Positions 698-31,816 of a stretch of 43,236 bases of DNA are shown in pieces. Origin of the DNA: Bacillota bacterium. Its GTDB lineage: Bacteria > Bacillota > UBA5301. The notes beneath the pieces were generated by a model. That model did not search any database, was not told where the DNA came from, and saw only the letters and a program-made list of their open reading frames with translations. Made by a program: the position numbers and the translations under genes. Location of the stretch: NCBI GenBank assembly GCA_012735535.1, contig JAAYHC010000023.1, forward strand, positions 1-43,236, written 5' to 3'. Each line of letters starts with the position of its first letter. Within the stretch, counting starts at the first letter, position 1.

Positions 698-2872
698 TCA
701 CCTCCCCTTTTTTGCTTCCATTTCCTTGAGTAGTTTGTCCGGGTATTCGACCCGGGCATGGAAAATACCGGTCAAAACCCTGACAAAGCTATTGGCGATA
801 GTATCAAGGTCTTTGAGCGTCAAGTCGGACTCATCCAACTGTCCATCGTCCAACCGCTCTTTGATGATTTTCCGGACCATAGCTTCGATCCGCCCGGGAG
901 TTGGCCTTTGCATCGAGCGGACCGCCGCCTCCGTGGCATCAGCCAACATCACGATCGCCGCTTCTTTAGTTTGTGGTTTCGGCCCGGTATAATGAAAATC
1001 TTGTTCCTCGATCGTACCGTCTTTCTCATTTTCTTGGGCCCGATGAAAGAAGTACTTAACCAGATCGGTCCCATGATGCTGCTGGATGATATCGGTGATC
1101 ACCTGCGGAAGCTTAGCCTCTTTGGCCATCTCAACGCCATCTTTGACGTGTGAAGTGATGATCAACGTACTTAAGCTCGGCGAGATTTTATCATGCGGAT
1201 TCTCCTGGGCAAACTGATTCTCGACAAAAAAGTACGGACGCTTCAGTTTCCCAATATCGTGATAGTATGCTCCAACCCGCGCCAACAGCGGGTCTGCATT
1301 CACCGCCTCGGCGGCCGCTTCGGCCATGTTGGCCACCATCAGACTATGGTGGTAGGTGCCCGGGGCCTCAACCAACAACCGTTTCATCAACGGCTGATTC
1401 GGATTGGATAACTCGAGCAGTTTAATCGCCGAAGTAATCCCGAAGAGGCTCTCCAGATAGGCGAGTGAGCCAATCGCCAAAATAGACGAAACGATGCCGT
1501 TAACCAGACCCAGATAGCTTTGTTTGATGACCGAAAGCTCATACTGAAACAGACCGATGCCCAAGATGGTAAAGAAGGTGACCCCGGCAACGATGCCGCC
1601 GGCGCGCATCAGGTCGCTGCGCTGGCTCACCTTGGACACAGAAAAGATCGCGGTCAATCCGCCAACGAGAGCGACAACCATGAACCGGAAATCGCCATTG
1701 CCTGCAACCACCCCGACTACAACCGCCAAGAACACGGCTGTCATTACCGCAACCCTGGCATCAATGAGAATGGCTATCAGCATTGTCGCAAAGGCCACCG
1801 GGATGATATAGCCGATACCCGGCCAGGGAATGGCGCTCAGAATTTTGGCGGCAAAGGTCGTCGTTACCGTGACCAAGCCCAACAGGGCTAAGAGAGATTC
1901 ATCTTTTATATAGCGCGGCTCATATTGGTAGATGAAAAACCCCAGCAGAGCGACCATGATCAGGGTCAAGATCGCGATCCCCAGGAAATTGATTAACCCA
2001 CCTTCACCCCGCTGTAGGCCCAGTTCCCGCAGGATCCTCAGGTCTTCTTGGTCGATCACATCACCGCGCCGGACAATCGCTTGTCCCTTGAGAATCCGCA
2101 CCGGTTCGACGGACTGGCGGGCAATCTCTTGGCCGCGCTGTACGGCATCCGGATCTAAAACCAGATTCGGTCGGAGCAGACCGGCAACGATGGTTGCCAC
2201 CGGTTCCAGCGGAAGCGACGCGTTTAACCGATCCGCCAAATCCCGCTCCAACTTCTCCCGGACCTCGCCCAAGTTTTCCGGCGTGATCCGCTCGGACAAC
2301 AAATATGTATTGAGCAAAGTCGCAGCTATATTCTGCAACCGGGGCAAAGATTGAGTGCTATCCAACAGAGCCACTAGCTGCCACGGGCTGATCTGCGCCC
2401 CGGAGATCTCCTCAATTCGAGCGGCAGCTTCTTGGGCAATGCGAGTCCGCTGCTCCGTAATGGACCCGGCTTCCCCCAAACGTGGCTGTTCCATTTCAAC
2501 CAGGGCTTCACTGATCACCTGAAAGACCAGTTCGACCTGGTCGGCCGCGGCTCGAGCAATTTCTCGATTAATCACATAATTAGCCGGATCCTCTTTGATC
2601 AGTTTTAGCGCTTGTTCTTCGGCAGCTTGCCGCAGTTTGGCGGTTGCCGCCTCATCGATGATGGTTCGCGGCGCTTGAATATCGCGGGTGGCGACTTGTC
2701 CAACCTGCAGGTTTACTTGGCGTGGCTCCAGATTCGCACCAAGAATCGCAATCAGCGAAATGGTGAAAACAGCACCCAGCACCCAGCTTTTTTTAAGCAC
2801 GGAGCCTAATTGAACAGCTTGTTTTCTATTAAAGTAGTTTTTTATCGTTCGCCAAAAATCTCGTTTAGTCAT
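698..2872 (-). CDS. pgpH: 7TM-HD family cyclic-di-AMP phosphodiesterase PgpH / YqfF
   Basis: Extracellular domain, several TM helices, HD domain (APGTYHHSLMVANMAEAAAEAV..ARVGAYYHDIGKLKRPYFFVENQ); synteny with ybeY. Confidence 0.93.
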   Translation of the reverse strand: MTKRDFWRTIKNYFNRKQAVQLGSVLKKSWVLGAVFTISLIAILGANLEPRQVNLQVGQVATRDIQAPRTIIDEAATAKLRQAAEEQALKLIKEDPANYVINREIARAAADQVELVFQVISEALVEMEQPRLGEAGSITEQRTRIAQEAAARIEEISGAQISPWQLVALLDSTQSLPRLQNIAATLLNTYLLSERITPENLGEVREKLERDLADRLNASLPLEPVATIVAGLLRPNLVLDPDAVQRGQEIARQSVEPVRILKGQAIVRRGDVIDQEDLRILRELGLQRGEGGLINFLGIAILTLIMVALLGFFIYQYEPRYIKDESLLALLGLVTVTTTFAAKILSAIPWPGIGYIIPVAFATMLIAILIDARVAVMTAVFLAVVVGVVAGNGDFRFMVVALVGGLTAIFSVSKVSQRSDLMRAGGIVAGVTFFTILGIGLFQYELSVIKQSYLGLVNGIVSSILAIGSLAYLESLFGITSAIKLLELSNPNQPLMKRLLVEAPGTYHHSLMVANMAEAAAEAVNADPLLARVGAYYHDIGKLKRPYFFVENQFAQENPHDKISPSLSTLIITSHVKDGVEMAKEAKLPQVITDIIQQHHGTDLVKYFFHRAQENEKDGTIEEQDFHYTGPKPQTKEAAIVMLADATEAAVRSMQRPTPGRIEAMVRKIIKERLDDGQLDESDLTLKDLDTIANSFVRVLTGIFHARVEYPDKLLKEMEAKKGR

Positions 2873-4145
2873 TAATCACGAATCCTTCCCAGTTCGCAGG
2901 AGGTGGTTCCCCTACCGCAACCCGGCGGTGAAGCCCAATGTCTTCACGGGCACTCACCAAAACCTCCGCGCGCACTCGGCCGTCCTCGGTGAGGAACCGG
3001 ATCTGTTCATCTAAGATCGTGGCCTCCGGAGGCAACTGCGCCCTGATTTTCGCCCTGGCCAACCGGAGAGCCTCTAATTTAGCCTCCTCCGGTTCAATCT
3101 TAATCTGAACCGTTTGCAGCTCTCGGTATACCAAGCGGACTAGTCTAATTTCACCTAATCTCCAAGGCAGGGGCCAGTACCAGGTTTGTTCTTCGGTTTC
3201 AAATTCCACGTAGGGTGAGACTTTCCTCCCAAGCGCAAGCGTCCGCTCACCCAGGCCCAAGTAGTAAGCACACGTCTGCCTTCCGGTCCGCTCGCGTTGT
3301 TGCGAAGCATACCTCACCTCAGCCGCGGCATCATACCAAGTCAACGCCTGCACCAAACCATCGGCAAAAAGATAACCCCACCGACCCGCCCGGCCTAGTA
3401 AGGAATCAGGGCCTGGGGCTACATTTTCGTTATTATAAACCTCCGGACCGAAGTAATCAAGGGGGACAACCCCGCTAATCAAGACATCTCCCGCCTGAAC
3501 AGTTTGTCCTTTGCGGACTACCGGCAAGCCGGCAAAAGTAATGAGCGAATCAACGACTCCTGATTTCGCAGCCACCAAGTGACAGGGTTGATCCCGTTTC
3601 TCCTCAAAGGATGTCCGCAGCACCGCCTCGACAAACAGAGCAGTGCCCCGTATCTCAACAGCAGCCCAGGACAGTGACTCGAGCTCCGTTAGCAGCAACC
3701 TCTCCAACTCTCTGACCTCGATGCCCCTACTACGGACCCCGGTAGTTATCCCTGCTTGCCCCAGCACCGCTTTAACCTGAACTCGCACCTCCGGGGGAAC
3801 ATTGTCCAGATTGATGAACCAGATAAAACCGCTGGCTAAATACAGCAAGAGACCAACGGCAACAATCCCCACCATGAGGGCCTGATGCTGAAAAAGCCGG
3901 CGGGCCAGAAAAGGCAAGCCACGCCGGCGTCTGATCTCAACGGCCAGCCGTAAACTTTTAATAATCGGGCGCAACCGACGGAAGTCTTTGACCGAAACCG
4001 AGCAATAGAGCCGGTCCGGCACCGGCCGGGAAACGTTGCTAAGCACGATTCCCTCTCTGTTGGCCATATTGACAAAGGTTTCCAGTCGGGCCCCTTTGAC
4101 TCTGATGACAACATATCCTTGCAGACCGTAGCGGAAGAAACCCAC
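2865..4145 (-). CDS. yqfD: Sporulation protein YqfD
   Basis: N-terminal GYVVIRVKGARLETFVNMANREGI pattern, single TM then soluble domain; adjacent to yqfC. Confidence 0.9.
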   Translation of the reverse strand: MGFFRYGLQGYVVIRVKGARLETFVNMANREGIVLSNVSRPVPDRLYCSVSVKDFRRLRPIIKSLRLAVEIRRRRGLPFLARRLFQHQALMVGIVAVGLLLYLASGFIWFINLDNVPPEVRVQVKAVLGQAGITTGVRSRGIEVRELERLLLTELESLSWAAVEIRGTALFVEAVLRTSFEEKRDQPCHLVAAKSGVVDSLITFAGLPVVRKGQTVQAGDVLISGVVPLDYFGPEVYNNENVAPGPDSLLGRAGRWGYLFADGLVQALTWYDAAAEVRYASQQRERTGRQTCAYYLGLGERTLALGRKVSPYVEFETEEQTWYWPLPWRLGEIRLVRLVYRELQTVQIKIEPEEAKLEALRLARAKIRAQLPPEATILDEQIRFLTEDGRVRAEVLVSAREDIGLHRRVAVGEPPPANWEGFVIND

Positions 4146-4451
4146 CTACTTCTCCTCCTTCTGGGCCGCGAAGGAAGGAAAAGCTAAGGAGGATACCCGT
4201 CCATCCACTACGATCTCGGTTGCGCTGATGGAGGCGATGGAAAGTCGTTGACCCTCGAGCCTTAATTCGCCGCCTCGCGCCCGGATTCTGAGACAATCAG
4301 GTTGATATAAGATAATGCCGAGGTGGTTTTCGATGATCACCTGCACCCCGGCGACGACCGTAACCTTGGGCAGGTTTAAAACCACCTCTTCGGGCAAATC
4401 CAGCAACTTTGAGGCCCCGCTGATAAGCCCTTTGCGATGAATGGAGCGCAT
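4146..4451 (-). CDS. yqfC: Sporulation protein YqfC (YabP/YqfC family)
   Basis: 101 aa, LDLPEEVVLNLPKVTVVAGVQVIIENHLGI..Y pattern of YabP/YqfC proteins; directly upstream of yqfD. Confidence 0.9.
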   Translation of the reverse strand: MRSIHRKGLISGASKLLDLPEEVVLNLPKVTVVAGVQVIIENHLGIILYQPDCLRIRARGGELRLEGQRLSIASISATEIVVDGRVSSLAFPSFAAQKEEK

Positions 4452-4472
4452 AGAAATCCTCCCTCATGCAGA

Positions 4473-4502
4473 ATTCTATGCGCCCGAGAAAGGAAATTAT
4501 GC
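4473..4502 (-). promoter_or_regulatory. Putative sigma-E-type promoter for yqfC-yqfD
   Basis: Minus strand GCATAATT-N14-CATAGAAT (-35 KMATATT-like, -10 CATACANT-like), about 22 nt upstream of the yqfC start. Confidence 0.5.
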
Positions 4503-5162
4503 TCGGCCAAACTCTACGCTGCCCCGAAAGCCGCTACGCTGTTGAAAGGCACTTAGTTGTTGTTTCCAGCGCCGATTGAGCTCGGCTTCCATTTCCCGCC
4601 GGAGCAACTCAACATGTAACCGCAGGTCATCCTGATATGAATCGCGCAAACGTTGTTCAAACTCGAAACACTCCTGCTGATACCGTAAAGCATACTCCGT
4701 CTCCAACTCTCGCCGCAGCTTCTCCAGATCCACTGAAAAGTCCGCCGGTTGCGCTGTCTTCTCCGGCGCTAGTTTCTGCTCGGGATCTGATCGTAGCTGC
4801 AGTTTGGGCTCTTGGAGCAGGAACTCATCGGTAGCAAAACCGACCAGTCCTTGATTATCTTGCACCGTGATCGCCAGACTCACCAGGGTAGTCTCACCAA
4901 CTCGTGATCCAGGTCTAGGTTTAGTATTTCTCACCCGACAGTCAACCGCTACGGATTGTCCCGGCAGCGCCCCGAAAACCGTTACTTGTCGGCTAAAAGG
5001 CACCTTGTTTTCGCACCGCTTAACAATGCCTTCGGCATCGACAACAGATACGATCTGCTCCAGAATGCCTTCAATTAAAACTAAATCCGGCTTAACAACC
5101 TTACCGGAGACTTCCTTTGGCTCGGTTTCAATGCTTTTCAGCATCCACTCATGGTTATTCAT
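4497..5162 (-). CDS. SPOCS/DUF3794-like domain protein with C-terminal coiled-coil (putative spore coat-associated)
   Basis: LVLIEGILEQIVSVVDAEGIVKRCENKVPFSRQVTVFGALPGQSVAVDCRV resembles the SPOCS (DUF3794) fold signature; C-terminal half is heptad-rich (LEKLRRELETEYALRYQQECFEFEQRLRDSYQDDLRLHVELLRREMEAELNRRW). Confidence 0.6.
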   Translation of the reverse strand: MNNHEWMLKSIETEPKEVSGKVVKPDLVLIEGILEQIVSVVDAEGIVKRCENKVPFSRQVTVFGALPGQSVAVDCRVRNTKPRPGSRVGETTLVSLAITVQDNQGLVGFATDEFLLQEPKLQLRSDPEQKLAPEKTAQPADFSVDLEKLRRELETEYALRYQQECFEFEQRLRDSYQDDLRLHVELLRREMEAELNRRWKQQLSAFQQRSGFRGSVEFGRA

Positions 5163-6217
5163 CGTTCAATCCTCCCAAGTAGTTGCCTGAATTCCGACCG
5201 CAACCTTTCCGGAAGATAATGGGCAGCGGTCCGCCGGGCCTGGTCGGCTAGCCTTCGGCGAAGGGGTTCATCGCCTGCCAGTTCTATGGTCAACCGACTT
5301 AATTCGGCCGGTGAAGACCAGTGAAACCCGTTCCAGCCAGGCTGAACAAGCTCCAGGGGTCCACCGGCGGCATAAACAAGTGGTACAACCCCCAAACTCA
5401 TAGCTTCCACTATACTAATGCCAAAATGCTCCGCTCGCTCCGGGGCCTTTGCCTCCTCACAGCCGGCACCATGCCAGAAGAGCTTGGCGCCGGCTAGATA
5501 CCTCAGCAGTTCACCCCGCGCAAGATCTGGTAAAATTTTGACCCGGCACCGAACAGCCAGTTGGCTTAGTTCACGCAGAAAGGCGCGGTCACGCTGACTT
5601 TGTCCCGATCCTCCAATAACATAATATTCCCAGGTTGGCATCTTGTCCCTGACAAGCGCAGAAAATGTGGTGAATAAAGCCCGATAACCCTTATTGTGCA
5701 GATCGGCCTGGAAACGCCCGATGCTGATGATCAGGTTTTGCCGCTCCAGAGTTGGCTGAATGGCCGGCAGGCCCGGCATGGCCGGGGCGATCACCACCGC
5801 ATCCAGCCCCCAGCGTTGTCTGATCCAATGTTGGCAATAGCGGGAGTAACAGATTACCGCCTGATATGAGGCCAAGACCTGCCGAGAAGGAGCTGCCCCG
5901 ACCGGAAACTGGATCACCAATATCCCGGTACGAGCTTGATTTACCGGCGGATCGCCCAAAGTCAGGCAGACAAAACGATCAAAACAGCGAGATAACTTGC
6001 TGACCTGCACATTGCTCAGCTGCGGTCGGCTGAGCCAATCTATTTCAGCCAGGCTAAGGCCAAAGCGCCGGTTTAACTGGTGACGCAGATCAGGCACCGG
6101 AGCAAGCAGGGTTGTCCGGCTATCCACGGCTAATTCTTTGGCCAACAAGGCAGCGTAGAGCTCCCCGCCTCCGAGAGCGGCAAAATACGGATCATAAACC
6201 AGACTAACCAGCGGCAA
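5159..6217 (-). CDS. Glycosyltransferase family 4 (GT-B)
   Basis: LGGGELYAALLAKEL N-terminus; C-terminal EHFGISIVEAMSLGVVPLVYAAGGPLELV; 4-nt overlap with downstream gene. Confidence 0.88.
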   Translation of the reverse strand: MPLVSLVYDPYFAALGGGELYAALLAKELAVDSRTTLLAPVPDLRHQLNRRFGLSLAEIDWLSRPQLSNVQVSKLSRCFDRFVCLTLGDPPVNQARTGILVIQFPVGAAPSRQVLASYQAVICYSRYCQHWIRQRWGLDAVVIAPAMPGLPAIQPTLERQNLIISIGRFQADLHNKGYRALFTTFSALVRDKMPTWEYYVIGGSGQSQRDRAFLRELSQLAVRCRVKILPDLARGELLRYLAGAKLFWHGAGCEEAKAPERAEHFGISIVEAMSLGVVPLVYAAGGPLELVQPGWNGFHWSSPAELSRLTIELAGDEPLRRRLADQARRTAAHYLPERLRSEFRQLLGRIER

Positions 6218-7316
6218 TTTGGGCCAACCTCTCTTTGATTCTTAAGGCGCTGTGTTCCCAGGTAAATTTGGCTAAGACGTCTTGCCGGGCTTTCGCGCCG
6301 AGCAACTTGGCCTCCTCCCGGTGCTCATACACCCACCGCATTAAAAAGCGCAGATGTTTCACGCTCGGCTTAGCCCAATAAAAACCTTGATAAACATGGT
6401 CGGTCCAAAAGCCGGCCGGGGTCGTTTTCTCCAAACGTTCCATATTTAAGAGCAGACTGTTAGAATGGTCCATGTACTCCAGATGAGCCGACCAGGCGGT
6501 ACAGATCACCGGCAGCCCGCTGGCCATCGCTTCGATCGCGGGCAAATTCCATCCCTCGCCCCGGGTCGGCAAGACGAAGCAGTCACCTGAGGAGTAAAAG
6601 CGGGGCATATCCGCGTACGGAATCACGTGATCCCATAAGATCGTACGTCGGCGCGCCGGGCCATGCTGGATTTTACTCAAATACTGTCTTCTCAACCGGG
6701 AAGGCTCGATTTTGGCGGTATTGGAAACCTTTAGAACCAGGCAGACATCATCTTTCTCCGTAAATTCACTGCTAAAAGCCTCCAAGAGGAATTCAAAACC
6801 TTTACGCGGGCGCCAATCAAAATTGGACAGAAAAGTGTACCCGGCTCGCTCGGGAATCTCCAGCGGCTCAAGTCCCGGTCGGAAGCGTTCTCCATCAACG
6901 CCAAAGGGCATTACTCTCACCTTGTCGGCCTGGACCCCGCTCTCAATGAAGGTCTTCCGGTTGAATTCGGAAGGAACCCAAATCTCATCCATCCGATTAC
7001 AAGCCTCAACCCAGGACCGGTGCAGACCGGTGGTTTCAATCATTGTCAAACCGATGTTGTAGCGGCCGGGGAAACGCTGAAAAGCCGGGGCGATCATGCT
7101 CTGGAGCACGGGCCAGCCCGGATTTTCCGGAGTCAGAGTAAGCCGGTGAAAGAACTCTCTTTGCTCTGCCGGTAAGCCGACATCCGGCAAGTCAATACCA
7201 ATGGGGTAGAGTTTGATCTGCACCCCGGCCGCGACCAATTTGGGAATAAGGTTCCGGTTCGATTCCGCATAACCGGTGATGTCATGGATATGTCCGTAAT
7301 AGGTGAGGCCTAGCAC
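6204..7316 (-). CDS. Glycosyltransferase family 4 (GT-B)
   Basis: VRVMPFGVDGERFRP; FVLPTRGEGWNLPAIEAMASGLPVICTAWSAHLEYM. Confidence 0.92.
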   Translation of the reverse strand: MLGLTYYGHIHDITGYAESNRNLIPKLVAAGVQIKLYPIGIDLPDVGLPAEQREFFHRLTLTPENPGWPVLQSMIAPAFQRFPGRYNIGLTMIETTGLHRSWVEACNRMDEIWVPSEFNRKTFIESGVQADKVRVMPFGVDGERFRPGLEPLEIPERAGYTFLSNFDWRPRKGFEFLLEAFSSEFTEKDDVCLVLKVSNTAKIEPSRLRRQYLSKIQHGPARRRTILWDHVIPYADMPRFYSSGDCFVLPTRGEGWNLPAIEAMASGLPVICTAWSAHLEYMDHSNSLLLNMERLEKTTPAGFWTDHVYQGFYWAKPSVKHLRFLMRWVYEHREEAKLLGAKARQDVLAKFTWEHSALRIKERLAQIAAG

Positions 7317-7329
7317 TAAGAACCCCTCC

Positions 7330-8475
7330 CTAATAGGTGGTATAATAGCCGTGCCGGTTCAGCGGCCGCAAAGTGCTGAGATGGCGGTACATTCGGCTAC
7401 AAGCGGCATCCCAGGTGTAATTAGCTAGAACACTTTCCCGGCCCAGTCTGCCGATGTTAGCTGCCCCAGGTCTGTTTTCAAATACCGAGCGCAGCAACAC
7501 GCCGAGATGGTGTGCACTGGGTCTGGCCCACATCGCCCCTTTGTATACGTGGTCATTGAATGGGTCAACCGGAGGGACGGGCTCAAAACACTCCACATTG
7601 ATCATCAAGGCATTCCCCGGATTGGCGTATTCCGTGTGACCGGACCAGTTCGTCACAATCACCGGCAACCCGGTGGCCATAGCTTCAATCGTCGGCATAC
7701 TCCACCCTTCGCCATGGCTGGGTAGTACAAAACAATCGGCAGCCCGGTAGAAGGCCGGCATCTCCTGATGCGAGACATTCTGTGTCCAAACGATGATTGT
7801 CGGCGGATCAGGCCGACACTCGCGGGCTAGCCTGTCAACTTCGCCCGGAATCCCGCTGAAATCGGCGCCCATGGTGTTAGTAATTTTCAAGATCAAACAC
7901 ACCTCATCTGCTGCCGAGAAGGTGTTGCAAAATGCTCTGACTAAGATATCCCAACCTTTACGCTTGTGCCAATCTAAGACCGACAGAAAAGTATAACCCC
8001 GGCGTCCAGGCACCGGATAAGCCGGTCCGTCCGGCCGAAAACGCTGGTGGTCAACACCAAACGGAAAAACCTTGACTTTTTCCGGACGCACCCCGCTGTT
8101 AACGAAGGTCTCCTGGTTAAAGCGTGACGGTACCCAAACCTCGTCCATGCGATTGCAGTAGTAGACCCAATGCGGGGTTAACCGGTCGGCCTCAAGCATG
8201 GTGACCCCGATGTTATAGCGGCCGGGTACGGCCTCGAAGCTGTTGGCCGGCCTGATTTGGAGGGTCACCGCCCGGTGGGAAACCCGATTATGGACGAGTC
8301 TGAGCAGCAAAGCCTCTAACTCCGGCTCGATCGGCACTTTAACCATCGGCACCGGAGCCGGCTCGACTTGTAGGGACACCCCCAGGGCATGTAATCCTTT
8401 GATGATCGCCCGGCTGACTTCGGCATAGCCGGAGACATCGAAGATATTCCCTTTAAACAGCACTTCCATGAGCAA
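7330..8475 (-). CDS. Glycosyltransferase family 4 (GT-B)
   Basis: VKVFPFGVDHQRFRP; FVLPSHGEGWSMPTIEAMATGLPVIVTNWSGHTEY; clear paralog of the neighbour. Confidence 0.92.
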   Translation of the reverse strand: MLMEVLFKGNIFDVSGYAEVSRAIIKGLHALGVSLQVEPAPVPMVKVPIEPELEALLLRLVHNRVSHRAVTLQIRPANSFEAVPGRYNIGVTMLEADRLTPHWVYYCNRMDEVWVPSRFNQETFVNSGVRPEKVKVFPFGVDHQRFRPDGPAYPVPGRRGYTFLSVLDWHKRKGWDILVRAFCNTFSAADEVCLILKITNTMGADFSGIPGEVDRLARECRPDPPTIIVWTQNVSHQEMPAFYRAADCFVLPSHGEGWSMPTIEAMATGLPVIVTNWSGHTEYANPGNALMINVECFEPVPPVDPFNDHVYKGAMWARPSAHHLGVLLRSVFENRPGAANIGRLGRESVLANYTWDAACSRMYRHLSTLRPLNRHGYYTTY

Positions 8476-8496
8476 ACCTTCCCCTTCCCCCTTGAA

Positions 8497-9573
8497 CTAA
8501 AAAGCCAAGCGCTGCTCGATTTGTTGACTTACTTGTTCCCAAGTCCAGTAAGTGCGCAGATGCAAACTGCCCAATCTCGCTTTCTCCCGGGCAGCCGCAT
8601 AATTGTTGTAGACAAAACGCATCGCCTCGCGCAGCTCGCTGAGGCTCGGTTCAAACCAGAACGGCCGACCGACCGTGCGTACGCCGCCAATTAAAGCCGG
8701 GTCGATCTCTCGCACTTTGCCGCGGACAAAGTACACCATATCGCTGTTGGCATATTCGGGCACCGGACCATAAAATGAGGTGATCGTCGGGATACCGCAA
8801 GCCAAAGCCTCGGCAACCGGCAGACAAAAACCCTCGGTTCGGTACGGATGCACCAAACAATGGCAGGCCCGGTAGATCCCCGGAATTTGCGTTGCGGAAA
8901 TCTCATCATACAAATAGAGGATTTCCGGGCGACTGGGATCACGACTAAGCGCATCAAGATAGGTCGAGCGACCGTAGAAAAAATCTTTGATGACCAGGCA
9001 GACATCTTCCCGCGGGCTGAATTCCTCGAAAAACGCTCGGAGCAATAAATCGAAACCTTTACGGCCGCCCGCCCGCGTTCCACCGACATAGAGAAACCGA
9101 AAGCTGCGTCTGGTCGGCAAGCGCGCCGCGGGCACATCCGGATTAAACAGGTCCGGCTCAACTCCACAGGGGATGACGTGTAGTTTAGCCAGTGGGATGC
9201 CGCTACGCAGAAATACATCCCGCACAAAATTGGAATACACCCAGATCTCATCCGGTTCGGTCTGCAAAGGGCGCACCCAGTCCACCGGTAAGAAGCCGTA
9301 CTCCCACGGTAGAATGACCGCCAAACGGCCATTCGCCGGACGATGAAACTCGGGCGGATAGACATGCCGCACGGTAAGCCCGTCGGGAACCGGACCAGGC
9401 AGCCCTAAGAGCGGACGATACCGGGCATCCTCGCTGATATTAGGCATCTGACCGCCGCGCTTAATCGCGCTTACGGTTACCCCCCGGCGTAGTAAAGCTA
9501 AGGCCGTCTCACGGTTAAAATGAGCAAAACTATGATAAGTGAAGAATTCGCCTTCGATCGTAATCGGACGCAT
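8497..9573 (-). CDS. Glycosyltransferase family 4 (GT-B)
   Basis: LHVIPCGVEPDLFNP; LVHPYRTEGFCLPVAEALACGIPTITSFYGPVPEY; likely start ATG at 9573 (MRPITIEGEFFTYHSF). Confidence 0.9.
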   Translation of the reverse strand: MRPITIEGEFFTYHSFAHFNRETALALLRRGVTVSAIKRGGQMPNISEDARYRPLLGLPGPVPDGLTVRHVYPPEFHRPANGRLAVILPWEYGFLPVDWVRPLQTEPDEIWVYSNFVRDVFLRSGIPLAKLHVIPCGVEPDLFNPDVPAARLPTRRSFRFLYVGGTRAGGRKGFDLLLRAFFEEFSPREDVCLVIKDFFYGRSTYLDALSRDPSRPEILYLYDEISATQIPGIYRACHCLVHPYRTEGFCLPVAEALACGIPTITSFYGPVPEYANSDMVYFVRGKVREIDPALIGGVRTVGRPFWFEPSLSELREAMRFVYNNYAAAREKARLGSLHLRTYWTWEQVSQQIEQRLAF

Positions 9574-9577
9574 GCTC

Positions 9578-10825
9578 TTATCCCCTCTGGGCAAACCAGA
9601 CATATCTGGCCGCCCACTGGATTTTGCGGATCAGTTCGTTGGCTGTGGACTCTTGGACTAAAGTTTGCCGGATCAGTCCGGCCTTGTTATGCCAGACGAG
9701 GCGCTCCCAGACTTTTGACCACACCATAAACGCATAGGTAAATGCACCCATGGCCTGGATCGCGGCATTCCAGGTTGACTCCGGATACAAACGCAAGACC
9801 TCAACCGGTTTGGCGAGGATATCCAAGTCCGAGAACTGGGTCAGCGAAGAGACAATCCGATCGGCATCTCGATCTGACAAACGATTAGCCTCACCCAAAA
9901 ATGAGTTCAGATCCCTGCGAGCAATCCAAGTCAAGCTTTCGGGCAAGCCGGAGTAGACCTGTGGGGGTACCCGGTGCGCGAGAGAACCATTGGCCCCACC
10001 GAGCTGGGTCAAGGCTTCGCGGAATTGAGCGAGGGCGGTAAGATTGCGCCCTTCTCTGCTGATCAAGTGTCCTCGGCCGGTCGCTTCGTAATAGTTAAGC
10101 GTTTTCAGATATCGATAATACTCGTATAAGGCCTGACCCGTGCTGACAAAAAGACCGACGAGCTGATCCCGCCAGCCCTCTTGCTGTTTATAGGCCAAGA
10201 TAAAACGGTCACAAAAGCCGCGAAATGGACTGAGATCGGAGATTCTGGTTGAGTTTTTCAGATGGTCGTCAACTTCCAGGTTTGTGTAATGATTTGATTT
10301 GCCGAAATAATGGGAGATGCTGGTATATGAGTAGTGCAAGATTGGATTGGTCAGGTTCACCACCGGCCCGTTAACAGCCACAGACTCATGCACATGAAAG
10401 GCTTGGAAAGCACCGGCATCTTTACGAAACAAGCGTAGCTGCCAATCAGGATACCAACCGCATCCTTTCACCCAGTGTCCCAGAAAGATATTACGGCGGG
10501 GAAAGCGATAGCCTAGCGCCTGTGGTGATGCTAGTACGGATTGAATCTCAGCTATAGTCTCCGGTGGCAACACCTCGTCGGCATCAATGCTTAAAACCCA
10601 GGAGTGCGCGGCTTGGCTGATAGCAAAGTTTTTCTGCTCGGCAAAACCCGGCCACGGCCGTTGAATTACCTTATCCGTATAGCGCCTGGCTATCTCGACC
10701 GTATTATCCGAACTCAGCGCATCGACGACAACAATCTCATTAACCCAGCGCAAAGAATCCAGACAGCGTGCCAAATCTGCCGCCGCATTCTTGACAATTA
10801 GAACCGCAGATACCTGTTCCAACAA
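9578..10825 (-). CDS. Glycosyltransferase family 2 (WaaE/KdtX-like N-terminal domain) with extra C-terminal region
   Basis: VSAVLIVKNAAADLARCLDSLRWVNEIVVVDALSSDNTVEIARRYTDKVIQRPWPGFAEQKNFAI..WVLSIDADE; TTG start at 10825 preceded by a GGCAGGGG RBS. Confidence 0.9.
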   Translation of the reverse strand: MLEQVSAVLIVKNAAADLARCLDSLRWVNEIVVVDALSSDNTVEIARRYTDKVIQRPWPGFAEQKNFAISQAAHSWVLSIDADEVLPPETIAEIQSVLASPQALGYRFPRRNIFLGHWVKGCGWYPDWQLRLFRKDAGAFQAFHVHESVAVNGPVVNLTNPILHYSYTSISHYFGKSNHYTNLEVDDHLKNSTRISDLSPFRGFCDRFILAYKQQEGWRDQLVGLFVSTGQALYEYYRYLKTLNYYEATGRGHLISREGRNLTALAQFREALTQLGGANGSLAHRVPPQVYSGLPESLTWIARRDLNSFLGEANRLSDRDADRIVSSLTQFSDLDILAKPVEVLRLYPESTWNAAIQAMGAFTYAFMVWSKVWERLVWHNKAGLIRQTLVQESTANELIRKIQWAARYVWFAQRG

Positions 10826-10857
10826 TGAACCCCTGCCTTTCCGGCGATTCTCGGTTC

Positions 10858-10884
10858 ATTGTATGCTCCGGTCCCAGGGTAGGT
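10858..10884 (-). promoter_or_regulatory. Putative sigma-K/sigma-E-like mother-cell promoter for the glycosyltransferase block
   Basis: Minus strand AC-N17-CATACAATG (sigma-K consensus AC-N16/17-CATANNNTA; final A is G here), about 33 nt upstream of the GT2 start. Confidence 0.35.
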
Positions 10885-10922
10885 TATTGCGATTGGAGTC
10901 CACATCCGCCTGAGCAAAGCAA

Positions 10923-10956
10923 AATAAAAACCCGACCTCTGACTTGAAGCCGGGTT
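10923..10956 (-). terminator. Rho-independent terminator after rpsU
   Basis: Minus strand AACCCGGC-loop-GTCGGGTT followed by TTTTATTTT. Confidence 0.85.
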
Positions 10957-31471: not shown

Positions 31472-31816
31472 CTAATTCTCTATTAATTCTATGCGCAGAT
31501 TGTTCAAGACAAAAAAGCTTATCCTCTGACCGGAATTACCGGTGACCTGTCGCTCCTCGACCGCTCCGGCCTCAAGCAGACGAGTTTTCATCTGGTCAAA
31601 CTTATCAGTGGCAAAGGCAACGTGATCGATCCCCAGCTGATTGCGGCCCGTTTGTCGTAAGAACTCAATTTTAATGCCGGCAAAGTCGTATTCTTGTGCT
31701 GCCAGCCCGGCCTCGGTTATTGCCCATTGGCCAACAAGCTCAGCCTCGCAGACTTTGCTAATGGCAGCAGCTGATGCCAGGTCAGCAACATAGACGCCGA
31801 GATGAGCAAATCTCAC
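31472..31816 (-). CDS. VOC (glyoxalase/methylmalonyl-CoA epimerase-like) family protein
   Basis: FAHLGVYVADLASA; LGIDHVAFATDKFD; LRIELIE. Confidence 0.8.
   Translation of the reverse strand: MRFAHLGVYVADLASAAAISKVCEAELVGQWAITEAGLAAQEYDFAGIKIEFLRQTGRNQLGIDHVAFATDKFDQMKTRLLEAGAVEERQVTGNSGQRISFFVLNNLRIELIEN

Follow-up and report, generated by a model that had tools for sequence, protein, structure and literature searches.

Knowledge of spore glycans comes from a handful of Bacillus and Clostridioides species, and the route by which glycosyltransferases (GTs) reach the spore coat is unclear. In C. difficile, the gene of the glycosyltransferase SgtA adjoins that of the spore-layer protein BclA3; SgtA is a sugar-nucleotide-dependent enzyme that acts on the protein, a collagen-like acceptor glycosylated on threonine (PMC7157674). 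In B. subtilis, the sps, cge and yfn crust polysaccharide genes are spore-surface sugar genes, one of which codes for a GT2 enzyme (PMC7439481). SgtA–BclA3 and the sps genes are the described systems closest to the locus examined here, a cassette of five GT genes and one gene coding for a SPOCS-domain protein, on a contig of 43,236 nt (JAAYHC010000023.1 of assembly GCA_012735535.1, our C71) from a Bacillota bacterium (lineage Bacteria; Bacillota; UBA5301) whose draft genome of 1.94 Mb is 98% complete. The window hereafter means this whole contig. Like the sgtA locus, it has a GT gene adjoining one for a putative spore-layer protein; unlike it, it has five GTs instead of one, and its SPOCS-coil protein is not of the acceptor type. 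The likeness to the B. subtilis genes is one of gene type, and the latter differ in including nonulosonic-acid synthesis genes. A published linkage between SPOCS (or DUF3794) proteins and GTs was not found in the full text of the CC-licensed papers of PubMed Central, a scope outside which most subscription papers lie.

The cassette is probably a machine that places sugars on the spore coat. The interpretation that we favor, with a probability of about 0.62, is that of a late mother-cell operon which glycosylates a coat layer and whose SPOCS protein is an adaptor rather than an acceptor.

The minus strand of the window reads, in order, rpsU, a terminator-like hairpin, GT2, GT4a, GT4b, GT4c, GT4d, the gene of the 221-aa SPOCS protein, yqfC, yqfD, yqfF and ybeY. 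The block that goes from GT2 to the SPOCS gene (10825-4497, minus strand) lies between the rpsU terminator and yqfC, its six open reading frames (ORFs) are all present on that strand, and its GC content is close to that of the flanks. The genes are separated by 4 nt (GT2/GT4a), 21 nt (GT4a/GT4b) and 13 nt (GT4b/GT4c), or overlap by 14 nt (GT4c/GT4d) and 4 nt (GT4d/SPOCS), so that they very likely share one transcript, as the initial annotation proposed; 45 nt separate the SPOCS gene from yqfC. The Rho-independent terminator of rpsU (CCCGGCTTC...GGTCGGG followed by a T-run, about 10920..10954, minus strand), as read from the sequence, isolates the cassette from rpsU. All six proteins lack membrane segments.

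The SPOCS gene (4497..5162, minus strand) codes for a protein with one SPOCS domain (residues 7-116), a linker and a helix of 65 residues (146-210). Taken alone, the protein is below the cut-off of Pfam PF12673 (E=0.01, 16.5 bits vs 23.6 required) and has no match in NCBIfam. A profile made from three orthologs (the window protein and two others) retrieves SPOCS proteins from 66 of the 399 genomes sampled in the phylum and aligns with 12 SipL SPOCS domains (hhalign 95.3%, E=2.2e-8), which confirms by homology that the protein carries a true SPOCS domain, and bears out an assignment that was weak in a single Pfam search. In the AlphaFold model (mean pLDDT 78), residues 7-116 form a six-stranded beta domain, the linker is of low confidence, and the long C-terminal coiled coil that had been predicted is a single helix with a pLDDT of about 94. 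Sequence and fold searches of the PDB with this protein gave no match at E≤0.001, and no solved SPOCS structure was found for comparison. The SPOCS domain is shared with SpoVID, CotE and SipL, from which the window protein differs in its 65-residue helix, its genetic linkage to five GTs and its lack of LysM: Pfam finds none of the SpoIVA-binding LysM of SipL and SpoVID in it. The SipL of the window genome is encoded separately, on contig C69, and has both SPOCS and LysM. CotE, an outer-coat morphogen, is a small single-SPOCS protein, and the window protein resembles it in domain layout, which is all that was compared. No SPOCS domain is present in any of the 14 control genomes. A single-SPOCS protein with a helical C-terminus is also encoded in genome G153 (L130, 10118-10822), in a yebC-ruv locus that has no GT; it is 26% identical to the window protein over 213 residues.

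All five GTs have intact catalytic motifs (DXD in GT2, E-x7-E in the GT4 enzymes) and match their families in Pfam, with best E values of 5e-13 to 1e-18 for the four GT4 enzymes (PF00534/PF13692). GT2 (9578..10825, 415 aa, TTG start, DAD motif at 81-83; PF00535, E=7.5e-17) consists of a WaaE/LgtF-like domain and of a C-terminal helical extension that the alignment shows solely in the window's family. The best match of this domain among solved structures is Listeria GmaR (3.6e-18), followed by SunS; the extension sets the window enzyme apart from that family. We do not take the similarity to GmaR as decisive proof of protein glycosylation, since the closest GT2 enzymes found by scan are WaaE/LgtF-like and come from many phyla (Acidobacteria, Nitrospirae and others). 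The AlphaFold model of GT2 has a mean pLDDT of 67 and was kept out of the fold comparison. GT4a (8497..9573, 358 aa, EGFCLPVAE; PF00534, 5e-13) is taken to start at the ATG at 9573, which has a better context than the beginning of the mechanical ORF at 9603. It is followed by GT4b (7330..8475, 381 aa, EGWSMPTIE; PF13692, 1.6e-16), GT4c (6204..7316, 370 aa, EGWNLPAIE; PF13692, 6e-17) and GT4d (5159..6217, 352 aa, EHFGISIVE; PF00534, 1.2e-18), all on the minus strand. In the tree, GT4b and GT4c pair as sister paralogs within the window's family (96/93), and GT4d is confined to this family among the genomes examined.

The order GT2-GT4a-GT4b-GT4c-GT4d-SPOCS-yqfC-yqfD is shared by the family's three genera, among them UBA5301 and GB_MAG18_067, at 37-78% identity; the stretch is divided between two contigs in UBA5301, and the gene upstream of the cassette differs in the relative G005. 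A more distant member of the class (G003) has rpsU-nfeD-floA-yqfC instead. The initial annotation noted that nfeD/floA-like genes are absent here; floA is indeed missing from the rpsU–yqfC interval of the window, and is kept elsewhere in the genome (contig C53). Spo0A, SpoIVA and SigK are over their cut-offs in the window genome, and each of the seven genomes of the class has all three.

The pairing of such GTs with SPOCS genes recurs outside the family. The best matches of GT4c there belong to SPOCS-linked cassettes of two other families, f6 and f53, to which a third, f117, was added later. These cassettes lie at another site, beyond yabG and veg, and consist of five GTs (GT4c-GT4-GT4-GT2-GT4a) followed by a multi-SPOCS gene (640-711 aa) located 10-291 nt directly 3' of GT4a. 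They share with the window an orthologous GT4a, a related GT4c, a GT2, the adjacent SPOCS gene and, in f6 and f53, a CATANNATA-type promoter; they differ in their genomic site, in the larger SPOCS protein, and in that two unrelated GT4s replace GT4b and GT4d. The multi-SPOCS protein was considered as a candidate SipL, and rejected, since it has no LysM by Pfam and the window genome encodes its SipL separately. In the tree, the window's GT4a forms a 100/98 clade with the GT4s of f6, f53 and f117, which spans four families and two genomic sites and every member of which is SPOCS-adjacent; the window's own family (f1) is counted as such although its SPOCS gene is at the opposite end of the operon from GT4a. 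Homologs of GT4a with E≤1e-50 are found in 15 of the 399 genomes, and a SPOCS gene adjoins in 12 of these 15 (two of the 15 are outside the comparison); in G281, the 20 kb examined contain no SPOCS gene. All 15 genomes carry yqfD, so none of them looks non-sporulating, and homologous GT cassettes in non-sporulating relatives, one of the findings by which the initial annotation would have been refuted, were not encountered in this sample.

A second GT4 clade (100/99) consists almost entirely of neighbors of SPOCS genes from f1, f6, f25, f53, f107 and f117, with one member from f119, and it includes a gene from contig C35 of the window genome. This second locus (positions 1-9300 of C35, L137; also present on contig C1 of G005, L145) comprises a GT2, a GDP-mannose 4,6-dehydratase, two multi-SPOCS genes, the gene of a 549-aa protein, a GT2 and a GT4. 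Neither multi-SPOCS protein (747 and 433 aa) has a LysM, and the dehydratase hints at a deoxyhexose donor. In a sample of the phylum, a GT is found within 5 kb of 20 of 39 SPOCS loci vs 0 of 40 yqfD loci (p=2.6e-8), and a GT4 alone within 5 kb of 13/39 vs 0/40 (p=3e-5); weak "GT2" matches near canonical sipL were dropped from the stricter counts. Canonical sipL has, in L178-L188 and L201, a recurring GT2-like gene of the VVPAKNEEGRI.. type at a distance of a few kb.

The promoter upstream of GT2 looks like a sigma-K-type promoter. A motif scan and conservation point to AAC-N17-CATACAATG (10857..10885, minus strand), with its -10 box 40 nt before the GT2 start. The -10 box recurs at this position in G005 (CATAGTATG) and G006 (CATAGTATA), a CATAGTATA/CATAATATA box precedes the f53 and f6 cassettes, and CATAGTATG is found at -40 of the 747-aa multi-SPOCS gene of C35 and at -41 of its ortholog in G005. 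Four of the 11 CATANNAT sites of the window lie at most 60 nt upstream of spoIIP, yqfC, GT2 and fsa, that is, in 2.6% of its length (p=1.2e-4). According to a published rule, a -35 ATA denotes sigma-E and AC denotes sigma-K (PMC3789822). Since the -35 is AC for GT2 and ATA for SipL and yqfC, the former is assigned to the sigma-K type and the latter two to the sigma-E type. The promoter of yqfC (GCATAAT-N15-CATAGAAT, 4473..4502, minus strand) is conserved in the three genera. The cassette thus appears to have a late mother-cell promoter of its own, separate from that of yqfC. The initial annotation had linked a spore glycosylation cassette to sporulation through the neighboring sigma-E genes yqfC and yqfD; that link does not hold, whereas the SPOCS domain, the yqfD-carrying genomes and a promoter that looks mother-cell specific rather than vegetative all speak for the cassette itself, of which a coat or exosporium layer would be the target.

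The analysis itself shows the gene content and its conservation, the homology of the SPOCS domain, the type of promoter and the tie of GT4a to SPOCS genes in the tree. We infer the timing of expression, the acceptor and substrate, the glycan, the order of transfer and the docking of the adaptor as follows. A sigma-K-type promoter would turn on the single operon late in the mother cell, yielding five soluble GTs and the SPOCS-coil protein. The SPOCS domain would dock on the coat layer via other SPOCS proteins (SipL, or the multi-SPOCS proteins of the genome); a SPOCS domain is known to bind another SPOCS protein in the case of SpoVID and CotE (PMC10867305). The long helix may recruit or oligomerize the GTs. 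Drawing on the sugar nucleotides of the mother-cell cytosol, these would assemble a short glycan directly on a coat protein at the surface of the forespore, one transfer after another. The first of them to act is most likely GT2, in view of its resemblance to protein glycosyltransferases (GmaR, for example); the GT4s would then lengthen the chain.

Several observations weigh against this interpretation. Close homologs of GT4a or GT4c are found in none of the class relatives G001-G004, which do carry sporulation genes. SPOCS-coil proteins exist without GTs, as in G153, relatives of GT4b and GT4c also occur in ordinary sugar gene clusters, and canonical SipL loci are weakly associated with GTs (GT4 at 2/21). 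The 39 SPOCS loci of the survey were picked by similarity to the window protein and not at random, which limits the generality of the association. Regarding the promoter, the site upstream of GT2 is the sole full match to MAC-N17-CATANNNTR in the 43-kb window, where 0.82 are expected, so that one match is near chance and its weight comes from position and conservation; besides, the -35 is clear in the window and not in G005, and the choice of sigma-K over sigma-E rests on few sites.

The alternative that survives best, which we consider unlikely although it deserves to be taken seriously, also supposes that the operon serves to make a spore glycan in the mother cell. The SPOCS protein would then be a minor structural protein of the coat, co-regulated with the GTs and without a direct role in glycosylation; the GTs would either modify some other acceptor or make a free polysaccharide of the coat or exosporium. 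The G153 protein and the low Ser/Thr content of the SPOCS protein, which speaks against its being an acceptor, are in line with this alternative. So are the sps genes: they are spore-surface sugar genes that are not known to have a linked SPOCS gene, and no SPOCS protein is known to be encoded in the sps, cge or yfn operons. Against this alternative, the adjacency of GT4a and SPOCS genes at two genomic sites and in four families is more than shared regulation needs.

It is improbable that the cassette is a vegetative cell-surface glycan cluster (for exopolysaccharide, S-layer or a teichoic-like polymer) that lies beside sporulation genes by chance. GT4c-like enzymes are indeed also encoded together with GDP-mannose genes in sugar gene clusters, and the WaaE/LgtF type to which GT2 is closest is common in many non-sporulating phyla; but none of the six genes encodes a flippase, a polymerase or a priming lipid-phosphate transferase, all of which a Wzx/Wzy-type cluster would have, the promoter upstream of GT2 is of the mother-cell type, the SPOCS gene overlaps GT4d by 4 nt, and the SPOCS domain is absent from the 14 control genomes. 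Last, the glycan might be attached to the SPOCS protein itself. A precedent is the adjacent pair SgtA and BclA3, in which BclA3 is the acceptor. This is very improbable here, because Ser and Thr make up only 10% of the protein, which is predicted to be an ordered beta domain plus a helix, joined by a variable linker with few of these residues. Of the two roles, scaffold or acceptor, that the initial annotation proposed for this protein, that of adaptor or scaffold is therefore the likelier one.

The recurring SPOCS–GT pairing, with its mother-cell promoter, offers a way to test the idea that the best-known domain of coat morphogenesis may also organize coat glycosylation, and a rule for locating spore-glycan operons in uncultured lineages. 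A broader proposal, possible in our opinion and still rather doubtful, is that SPOCS proteins outside the SipL core are docking adaptors through which groups of cytosolic GTs reach the growing coat, so that SPOCS–GT complexes would glycosylate the spore coat in place in several families of Bacillota; the operon of the window would be a compact, relocated version of such a system.

The flanks of the cassette call for some remarks. yqfC (4146..4451, minus strand) codes for a YabP-family sporulation protein (PF07873, 8e-14; TIGR02856, 1.2e-20) and yqfD (2865..4145, minus strand) for a sporulation stage IV protein (PF06898, 4e-95; TIGR02876). In G006, yqfD (C152 108-1231, L070) is in pieces, broken by an in-frame TAG, which is either a sequencing error or the mark of a pseudogene. 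A 13-nt inverted repeat (4446..4483, minus strand; GCGCATAG...CTATGCGC) pairs the -10 box of yqfC with its start codon. It is present in all three cassette-bearing genera (fold z of -4.2 to -4.9), and no equivalent was found in 41 other yqfC loci. Only in mRNA that reads through from the GT operon would the hairpin block the translation of yqfC, which makes it an apparent translational insulator. A further inverted repeat spans the start of GT2 (10822-10862); it is absent in G005 and G006 and is taken as chance.

In four other families (f18, f78, f80 and f118), Cys-rich proteins are encoded beside GT4c-like genes. They were considered as hidden SPOCS proteins and rejected, being unrelated. They form two conserved families without a Pfam match (L083 4587-5207; L084 18702-19328; L085 1343-5943 and 15231-15845; L086 1972-2739), adjoin GT4c-like and GDP-mannose genes, and have the appearance of coat proteins. 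In the window itself, a mother-cell-type -10 box (CATAGAAT, 31486-31493) is located 34 nt upstream of the transaldolase-like gene fsa.

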